A DNA stretch of 64,000 nt, taken from Sediminibacterium sp. Gen4. GTDB taxonomy: Bacteria > Bacteroidota > Bacteroidia > Chitinophagales > Chitinophagaceae. The stretch spans positions 16,673 to 80,672 of the forward strand of contig JACBFI010000014.1 in assembly GCA_013391385.1 (NCBI GenBank), given 5' to 3'. This document shows, piece by piece, positions 52,394-53,589 of this stretch. The position numbers and the translations under genes were made by a program. The notes beneath the pieces were generated by a model, which saw only the letters and a list, made by a program, of their open reading frames with translations, made no database searches and had not been told where the DNA came from. Position 1 is the stretch's first letter, and every line of letters starts with the position of its first letter.

Positions 52394-53383
52394 CTATACC
52401 AATTTATGCTCCATGAGATACTCAGCAATCTGAACCGCATTGGTAGCAGCTCCTTTGCGAAGATTGTCACTAACGATCCACATATTCAATGTATTCGGTT
52501 GTGTTTCATCTCTTCTTAATCGACCAACAAACACTTCATCTTTTTCATGTGCCCATAAAGGCATGGGATATTGTTGGTTTGTAAGATCGTCTTGAACAAT
52601 CACACCGGGTGATTTTTCTAGTATTGAACGAACCTCTTCCAATGCGAAGTCATTTTCAAATTCAACATTCACACTCTCACTGTGCCCGCCAATAACAGGG
52701 ATACGAACGGTGGTAGCAGTAACACGGATGCTATCATCTTTCATGATCTTTTTGGTCTCATTCACCATTTTCATTTCTTCTTTGGTGTAACCATTGTCTG
52801 TAAACACATCAATTTGAGGAATTACATTTAGATCGATTGGATATTTATAGGCCATTTCACCTTCAACACCTTTTCTTTCATTAAATAACTGATCCACTGC
52901 TTTTTTACCTGTACCTGTTACACTTTGATACGTGCTTACTACTACTCGCTTAATTTGATAACGAAGATGCAGCGGCTGTAATGCAACGACCATTTGAATA
53001 GTAGAACAGTTAGGATTAGCGATGATGAAATCATCTTTCGTGAGTACATCGGCATTCACCTCAGGAACTATCAATTTTTTTGTAGGATCCATTCTCCATG
53101 CAGAAGAATTATCGATCACCCGAATACCGGCTTCAGCAAATTTGGGTGCCCATTCCAGTGAAGTACTTCCACCGGCAGAGAAAATAGCAATAGCAGGTTT
53201 AGCAGCAATACCATCATTCATACTCACTACCTTGTAAGGCTTCCCTTTAAAGAACACTTCTTTACCAACGGATCTCTCCGAAGCTACCGGAATGAGTTCT
53301 GTTACCGGGAAGTTACGCTCTGCCAGTACTTCCAACATTTTGGTACCTACTAGTCCAGTGGCACCTACAACTGCTACTTTCAT
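52394..53383 (-). CDS. asd: aspartate-semialdehyde dehydrogenase
   Basis: 329 residues from MKVAVVGATGLVG; the longer frame to 53428 crosses the leader terminator region and is unlikely. It reduces aspartyl phosphate to aspartate semialdehyde, precursor of lysine, threonine, methionine, isoleucine and diaminopimelate. GATGLVG NADP loop, NPNCSTIQ with catalytic Cys126, and GGHSESV. It is preceded by a leader ORF and attenuator (53436-53550), so expression should respond to these amino acids. Confidence 0.96.
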   Translation of the reverse strand: MKVAVVGATGLVGTKMLEVLAERNFPVTELIPVASERSVGKEVFFKGKPYKVVSMNDGIAAKPAIAIFSAGGSTSLEWAPKFAEAGIRVIDNSSAWRMDPTKKLIVPEVNADVLTKDDFIIANPNCSTIQMVVALQPLHLRYQIKRVVVSTYQSVTGTGKKAVDQLFNERKGVEGEMAYKYPIDLNVIPQIDVFTDNGYTKEEMKMVNETKKIMKDDSIRVTATTVRIPVIGGHSESVNVEFENDFALEEVRSILEKSPGVIVQDDLTNQQYPMPLWAHEKDEVFVGRLRRDETQPNTLNMWIVSDNLRKGAATNAVQIAEYLMEHKLV

Positions 53384-53435
53384 GATTTTTGTTTGTTTTG
53401 TTTTATTGGTTGTTGTTAAATGATTCACAGCAAAA

Positions 53436-53503
53436 AGGCCTTCCTGTTAGGGAAGGCCTCTGAGTATATTCGTTATCATACACAAACGTTCAGGCACCTT
53501 CCC
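53436..53503 (-). promoter_or_regulatory. transcription attenuator of asd: antiterminator and terminator
   Basis: On the minus strand, a terminator has stem AGGCCTTCC (53459-53451) / GGAAGGCCT (53444-53436), loop CTAACA, and then TTTTG. Two bases after the leader stop, GGGAAGGTGCCT (53503-53492) can pair with AGGCCTTCCC (53459-53450): seven G/C-rich pairs, a TG bulge and three more. The two structures share the same left arm, so only one can form. A ribosome at the leader stop would cover the first segment and favour termination; a stall upstream would free it. Confidence 0.75.
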
Positions 53504-53505
53504 GG

Positions 53506-53550
53506 TCAGAGAGGTTTCTTGGTACGTTTTGTATGTTTCATGATCATCAT
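53506..53550 (-). CDS. leader peptide of the asd attenuator (14 residues)
   Basis: Minus-strand ATG 53550, stop TGA at 53508-53506. Sequence MMIMKHTKRTKKPL: four Lys, two Thr, three Met and one Ile, ten of 14, all products of the aspartate-semialdehyde branch. Charged-tRNA shortage for Lys or Thr would stall the ribosome here. Alternative starts are Met2 and Met4. The -7 element 8 nt upstream suggests an almost leaderless transcript. Too short for ordinary gene finders. Confidence 0.65.
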   Translation of the reverse strand: MMIMKHTKRTKKPL

Positions 53551-53557
53551 TGCTTTG

Positions 53558-53589
53558 CGAAAATACTTGTGTTTGTTTTTTGAGCCAAA
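53558..53589 (-). promoter_or_regulatory. promoter of the asd leader
   Basis: Minus-strand TATTTTCG (53565-53558), variant of TAnnTTTG, with TTTG (53589-53586) 20 nt upstream, standard -33/-7 spacing for Bacteroidota. Its place fixes the leader ORF at the RNA 5' end. Confidence 0.6.

Follow-up and report, generated by a model that had tools for sequence, protein, structure and literature searches.

The window, meaning the whole stretch of 64,000 nucleotides analyzed from Sediminibacterium sp. Gen4, carries asd on its minus strand, and NCBIfam models support the identity of this gene (PRK14874, 446.6 bits; TIGR01296, 429.3 bits). An earlier note on this DNA had described, upstream of asd, a minus-strand series of promoter, 14-codon open reading frame (ORF), stop, GGGAAGG segment, and terminator, and had called it complete; all of these elements are present, each where it had been placed (Table 1). 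The leader ORF, ATGATGATCATGAAACATACAAAACGTACCAAGAAACCTCTCTGA (53550-53506), contains four Lys, two Thr, three Met, and one Ile, which makes up the ten of 14 residues that had been counted. The GGGAAGG of the antiterminator arm occupies 53503-53497 of the minus strand, and the terminator reads AGGCCTTCCC-TAACA-GGAAGGCCT (53459-53436), with a T tract that runs to 53432. The 132-nt leader has a predicted fold of -40.5 kcal/mol, compared with -24.5 kcal/mol (standard deviation, 3.4) for shuffled versions (z = -4.7), and none of 200 shuffles did as well. The terminator is absent from the output of a generic pattern scan of the window, probably because its stem extends into the T tract. A sigma-70 promoter scan was set aside, as it is not designed for Bacteroidota.

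Table 1. Elements of the asd leader locus, in window coordinates
Feature	Coordinates	Strand	Remark
-33 element, TTTG	53586..53589	-	Sequence inspection
-7 element, TATTTTCG, TAnnTTTG type	53558..53565	-	20 nt downstream of TTTG
Whole Bacteroidota-type promoter	53589-53558	-	
Leader ORF, MMIMKHTKRTKKPL, 14 codons, TGA stop	53506..53550	-	ATG at 53550; TGA at 53508-53506
Putative control codons, 5-12 of leader ORF	53538-53515	-	
Segment 1, 5' arm of P1 (leader codons 6-9), CATACAAAACGT	53524..53535	-	Fold and arm swapping
Segment 2a, antiterminator arm, GGGAAGGTGCCTGA	53490..53503	-	Begins 2 nt past leader stop
Segment 2b, 3' arm of P1, ACGTTTGTGTATG	53477..53489	-	Fold and arm swapping
Segment 3, AGGCCTTCCC, 5' arm of terminator, alternatively paired with antiterminator arm	53450..53459	-	
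Segment 4 and T tract, GGAAGGCCTTTTT, 3' arm of intrinsic terminator	53432..53444	-	
asd, aspartate-semialdehyde dehydrogenase, putatively regulated gene	52394..53383	-	ATG at 53383

Comparison with the asd upstream regions of relatives, which the earlier note had proposed as a check, revealed conservation of the short ORF and of its promoter, along with the antiterminator and the terminator. Within the genus, 92 of 101 genomes (the window's own counted) have an asd match at E ≤ 1e-80, and upstream DNA was collected for 70 asd places. The leader element precedes asd at 56 of these, one of which is cut at a contig end. Among the 14 places without it, L003 lies 124 nt from the end of its contig, with the element on another contig of the same genome, and L070 is a second, 71%-identical copy of asd. 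Two others, L025 (genome G077) and L032 (G064), keep the terminator between the kinase gene and asd and have neither promoter nor ORF, which looks like deletion of the promoter plus ORF. The last ten (L036, L044, L048, L052, L055, L058, L060, L062, L064, and L066; assemblies of 1.6 to 2.1 Mb) are free of any element, and their genomes yielded no match at E ≤ 0.01 to the leader model R1, introduced below. In these ten assemblies, asd directly follows the kinase gene.

A hairpin kept without any short ORF had been named in advance as grounds for rejecting attenuation. Such hairpins do occur, at two of the 70 same-genus loci, while the leader is kept at 56. Both cases, along with the location of the hairpin downstream of the kinase gene, fit a rival account in which an ordinary terminator of that upstream gene adjoins an asd promoter and the short ORF is fortuitous. 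However, the promoter and ORF come before the terminator, which must therefore lie inside the asd transcript. Moreover, the ORF, the alternative pairing, and the placement of the stop are kept across genera, and nine copies of the element stand before dapA instead of asd. We consider this account very improbable.

The model R1 was built from 52 same-genus leaders aligned with MAFFT, leaving out L037, which is cut by a contig end, and L027, L054, and L056, which are duplicates or near-duplicates. It is a sequence-only model because RNAalifold returned no consensus structure for this plain alignment of 52 leaders, probably because changes in loop length misalign the terminator columns. At E ≤ 0.1, R1 matched 230 of 294 family genomes, from 90 of 101 genera, and some of the weak matches may be due to chance. 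The best 150 family matches listed, which reach down to E 2e-7 and include five from the genus, the window's own among them, were inspected. In the stretch read, the next gene on that strand is asd for 141 of these 150 and dapA for nine, and none lacks both. The dapA copies belong to genera g3 (five), g86 (three), and g30 (one), at loci L096, L126, L131, L148, L176, L189, L190, L196, and L206. R1 had no match in 64 family genomes. Of these, 20 were checked; 19 had asd, and in none of the 19 did the 330 nt upstream contain the leader. L379, which lies outside the genus and has no R1 match, has a similar terminator and no Lys-rich ORF, and is possibly a third case of a hairpin without an ORF.

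Inspection by eye of the 320 nt upstream of 80 named asd loci identified such a leader in 23. It was seen in loci titled Sediminibacterium roseum, Niastella yeongjuensis, and Limnovirga soli and also in metagenome-assembled genomes (MAGs) titled Filimonas, Flavihumibacter, and Parafilimonas. No leader was found within 320 nt of asd in loci whose titles name Mucilaginibacter, Pedobacter, Sphingobacterium, Flavobacterium, Dyadobacter, or Spirosoma, and the same holds for some MAGs labeled Chitinophaga pinensis or Sediminibacterium sp. (L266, L294, L295, and L318).

Wider draws took in 198 genomes of the order and 247 of the phylum; the two sets share genomes and contain family members. They gave three and two R1 matches, respectively, outside the family at E ≤ 0.001. 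Of these five, two of which are in G453 and G498, the three inspected (L248, L249, and L250) have neither asd nor dapA next to them and were rejected as elements of this type. R1 found nothing convincing beyond the family in the sampled order and phylum genomes. Weak matches in the window's own genome were likewise rejected: the best, L072 (E 0.025), sits on the start of dapA, and no leader was seen at the dapA of this genome.

Sequence features were counted in a family set of 205 leaders, L037 excluded, which gave 197 distinct leaders once identical rows were collapsed. An ATG ORF of 13 to 23 codons is present in 193 of the 197; the four without one by the rule used are L175, L200, L041, and L043, of which the last two have a GTG start. 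Although this rule, which accepted stops between -14 and +45 nt, preferred Lys-rich frames, exactly one frame held a qualifying ORF in all 193 leaders, so the frame was not chosen for its Lys content. Relative to the start of the antiterminator arm, the stop codon lies at -5 to 0 nt in 94 leaders and at +7 to +16 nt in 99, and these two ranges account for 193 of 193. The earlier note had pointed out that the arm begins 2 nt past the stop (at 53503 in this locus), where a terminating ribosome could mask it, and the placement of the stop in relatives is consistent with this. If the ORF is instead begun at the ATG next downstream of the promoter box, 165 of 166 stops fall in the same two ranges, compared with 10.5% after shuffling; for this count, 29 of the 197 leaders had no box in the range used and two had no ATG.

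The promoter is kept too. One of the 193 leaders is short of upstream DNA, and among the other 192, a -7-type box (at least five of six positions) lies 3 to 11 nt before the ATG in 175, compared with 11.5% of shuffles; the other 17 have no such box. The observed distance from box to ATG is 4 to 11 nt, mostly 7 to 9 nt (139 of 175), and TTTG stands 19 or 20 nt upstream of the box in 149 of the 175. In Flavobacterium psychrophilum, the TAnnTTTG box is placed at -12 to -5 (PMC9723704). By that rule, most asd-leader transcripts would start about 0 to 5 nt before the ATG. The transcript is therefore probably leaderless or nearly so, given a start codon only a few nucleotides past the -7 box. Leaderless mRNAs make up only 5.5% of those mapped in F. 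psychrophilum (PMC9723704), and the mRNAs of Bacteroidota lack Shine-Dalgarno sites (PMC6847099).

Predicted RNA structures are conserved alongside the ORF. An intrinsic terminator of -10 kcal/mol or better was found in 197 of 197 distinct leaders and in none of 60 shuffled sequences. Pairing between the antiterminator arm and the 5' arm of the terminator beats shuffles at p ≤ 0.05 in 90% of the 197 (median, -12.2 kcal/mol; shuffle mean, -6.4 kcal/mol). Because this pairing uses the CCTTCC segment, the antiterminator shares its partner arm with the terminator, and the competition that the earlier note had read from the single locus is upheld. A third helix, P1, which the earlier note had not described, joins leader codons 6-9 (53535-53524) to 53489-53477, between the antiterminator and the terminator. 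P1 encloses GGAAGG, and P1 and the antiterminator are therefore mutually exclusive, except as a pseudoknot.

Covariation was examined by swapping arms between leaders of less than 80% identity (n = 76), a design that removes kinship only partly. For P1, own arms pair at -13.03 kcal/mol and swapped arms at -10.71 kcal/mol (0 of 5,000 permutations), and 59 of the 76 leaders do better than their own swap mean. For the antiterminator, the values are -12.33 and -11.37 kcal/mol (0 of 5,000). A stricter redundancy cut weakens both results, to 135 of 5,000 (n = 9) and 822 of 5,000 (n = 3) for P1 and to 134 of 5,000 (n = 9) for the antiterminator. In L007 and L010, GGAAGG/CCTTCC/GGAAGG is replaced by GGGGC/GCCCC/GGGGC, which is a natural three-way compensatory change in the antiterminator and both terminator arms. 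The antiterminator and P1 thus covary. By eye, a small hairpin at the stop codon also seemed to covary within the genus, but it failed the swap test (1,231 of 5,000 as good) and was rejected.

Considering the anatomy, its conservation, the covariation, the placement of the stop, and the association with asd and dapA, we regard it as very probable that the element is a ribosome-mediated, or leader-peptide, attenuator of asd that senses how much charged lysyl-tRNA is available, with Thr and Ile probably contributing. The earlier note had likened the arrangement to thr and trp attenuation, and the conserved ORF, terminator, antiterminator, and stop placement support that logic, which P1 refines by completing its three states. 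When the amino acid is ample, a ribosome would reach the leader stop and mask the adjacent GGAAGG, and the terminator would form. A ribosome stalled at Lys (or Thr/Ile) codons in the stretch from 5 to 12 would occupy the 5' arm of P1 and open this helix; GGAAGG would then pair with CCTTCC, block the terminator, and allow asd to be transcribed. If the ORF were not translated at all, P1 would form and trap GGAAGG in its loop, and the terminator would again form. The footprint of a ribosome extends about 15 nt downstream of its P site. With this usual footprint, a ribosome at the stop would cover GGAAGG, and one at codons 5-12 would cover the 5' arm of P1 and leave GGAAGG largely free. We infer that the stop-positioned ribosome blocks the antiterminator arm.

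The codons themselves suggest which amino acids would be sensed. Lys occupies codons 5, 8, 11, and 12 in 174, 179, 177, and 173 of the 193 leaders, respectively. Codon 6 is His in 159; codon 7 is Thr in 171 and Ile in 19 (190 for the two); codon 8, where not Lys, is Thr in nine and Ile in five, so that Lys, Thr, and Ile fill it in all 193. Codon 9 is Arg in 109, and codon 10 is Thr in 89 and Ile in 60 (149 of 193 together). In a reduced set, codons 5-12 are 46% Lys, 20% Thr, and 6% Ile in frame, whereas the other two frames give 3% and 15% Lys, and the promoter-anchored ATG gives 43% Lys. AAA and AAG exchange at a conserved Lys codon (105 AAA and 74 AAG at codon 8), a sign that selection acts on the amino acid. 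Within the reduced set, codons 5, 8, 11, and 12 carry a residue other than Lys in 34 cases, among them 12 Thr, six Ile, three Met, and no Glu or Arg. Thr, Ile, and Met thus account for 21 of 34 substitutes, whereas one-step neighbors would predict 2 in 7 (P = 5.7e-5 under independence of the rows, an assumption that does not hold here). Transitions from A to G would yield Glu or Arg, and at codon 8 they would preserve a G-U pair in P1. His-6 and Arg or Gln at codon 9 are also conserved, beyond the needs of Lys sensing, which counts against the attenuator reading; P1 pairing may account for this.

The peptide could also act through its own sequence. Under this explanation, the basic stretch KHTKRxKK would stall the ribosome via the exit tunnel, perhaps in response to a small molecule, and would operate the same RNA switch. 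The peptide is indeed kept in position and sequence (K5, H6, T7, and K8 at the counts above). Nevertheless, the codons for H6, T7, K8, and residue 9 double as the P1 arm, so peptide conservation is partly due to RNA pairing. Variants such as KHTTKTKKQ, KHTIITKKH, TNTTIKTIKQ, and TMTKKSIKKH retain the Lys/Thr/Ile content and lose the motif, and changes at Lys codons prefer Thr, Ile, and Met over equally near residues. Nascent-peptide arrest is accordingly improbable in our judgment.

Within the attenuator reading, the earlier note had proposed tuning to the products of asd, and this stands in part. Lys is likely the core signal, and Thr/Ile input is likely accessory; a role for Met in sensing is not supported, because Met makes up 0.7% of codons 5-12. 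dapA serves only the lysine/diaminopimelate (DAP) branch, and shared control of asd and dapA therefore points to Lys as the main signal. A narrower version of this reading, compatible with it, is a pure lysine attenuator in which only Lys codons count and Thr and Ile owe their presence to chance, composition, or P1 pairing. It draws on the nine dapA genes with the same leader among the 150 matches listed, in which codon 10 is Val (eight) or Ser (one) instead of the Thr or Ile of most asd leaders, and Thr/Ile sensing may fall to a thrA leader instead. Against it stand the near-constant Thr/Ile of codon 7, the Lys/Thr/Ile of codon 8, and the prevalent Thr/Ile of codon 10. Also, codon 7 is Thr in nine of nine dapA leaders, as it is in asd leaders, and the dapA copies are limited to three genera among the matches listed. 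We lean away from the purely lysine version while taking it seriously. A fuller picture, which we put forward tentatively and at just under even chances, is that one leader peptide on a near-leaderless transcript combines signals from more than one end product of the branched pathway, Lys with Thr/Ile, at the common enzyme asd. On this picture, the device would date back at least to the common ancestor of the many Chitinophagaceae genera in which it is found, and three genera would have acquired a copy before dapA, where replacement of the Thr/Ile codon 10 retuned it toward lysine.

Other genes of the aspartate pathway were also noted. The thrA gene of the window's own genome has an upstream short ORF, MNQMQSYMSFSFASTAMGTAIITTTTTTL (L333:897-983, on G000:C52), with an Ile-Ile-Thr6 run, which is a candidate Thr/Ile leader peptide, and a related short ORF, MNLKQSNIHLSAQTGLLFVTAIITIITTL, precedes thrA in L337. 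Such an Ile/Thr run was found at these two of the 23 thrA loci examined. The ORF makes leader-peptide control plausible in this organism; the L333 thrA leader folds no better than shuffles, and no strong terminator was seen. Two more aspartokinase-like genes besides thrA lie in the window's genome at G000:C34:7173-8057 and G000:C46:100820-101683.

Amino acid attenuation has been worked out in enteric bacteria, and to our knowledge, little of it has been described in Bacteroidota. The earlier note knew of no described case for asd in Chitinophagaceae; in keeping with this, open-licence literature on attenuation, leader peptides, and leaderless promoters yielded no leader peptide for asd or dapA in Bacteroidota. 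A family-wide, Lys-centered attenuator on these two genes would be a concrete and easily tested case for the phylum, and the leader supplies a rule for annotating many genomes. It would also allow one to ask how a leader peptide with a 5' untranslated region of near-zero length is translated in step with RNA polymerase. Moreover, the evolution of its amino acid tuning can be tested with the natural losses and with the pair of targets, asd and dapA.

Several known systems invite comparison. The lysine riboswitch, or L box, can control lysine-pathway genes via transcription termination and senses lysine directly, without translation. The asd leader resembles it in controlling a lysine-pathway gene by termination, on our reading, but would differ from this direct mode of sensing. 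At the gathering score, Rfam recognized no family, lysine riboswitch and T-box included, in the window or in 15 diverse loci. The best subthreshold match in the window is Phe_leader (26.6 bits against a cutoff of 55; E 0.017), and matches below the gathering score were not taken as membership. The lysine cluster of Thermus thermophilus reportedly has a leader peptide with Lys codons that attenuates lysine biosynthesis; compared by description, it is alike in these codons, but its targets are said to be genes of the alpha-aminoadipate pathway, not asd or dapA.

Closer in lineage, F. psychrophilum shows strong clues for leader-peptide attenuation before amino acid biosynthesis operons, and the available part of that paper, on a member of the same phylum, names neither asd nor dapA (PMC9723704). 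Short ORFs reminiscent of leader peptides are reported in Bacteroides thetaiotaomicron (PMC7366714). Closer in form is the trpL of Sinorhizobium meliloti, an attenuator with a leader peptide of 14 residues and a leaderless transcript that begins at the ATG (PMC7298713). The asd leader is like it in length and in its probable near-leaderless start, but trpL responds to Trp and belongs to the Alphaproteobacteria.

The closest likeness in logic is to the enterobacterial ribosome-mediated attenuators. Like thrL, trpL, hisL, pheL, and ilvL, the asd leader combines an ORF rich in codons for pathway products, competing RNA structures, and an intrinsic terminator. Unlike them, it has asd and dapA as targets, a Lys core, and a Bacteroidota host, and its antiterminator arm lies at the stop, is enclosed by P1, and follows a probable near-leaderless start. 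Judged from its sequence, the element would work as the enteric attenuators do: it has the sequence-level features of theirs that were tested, and it matches none of their Rfam families.
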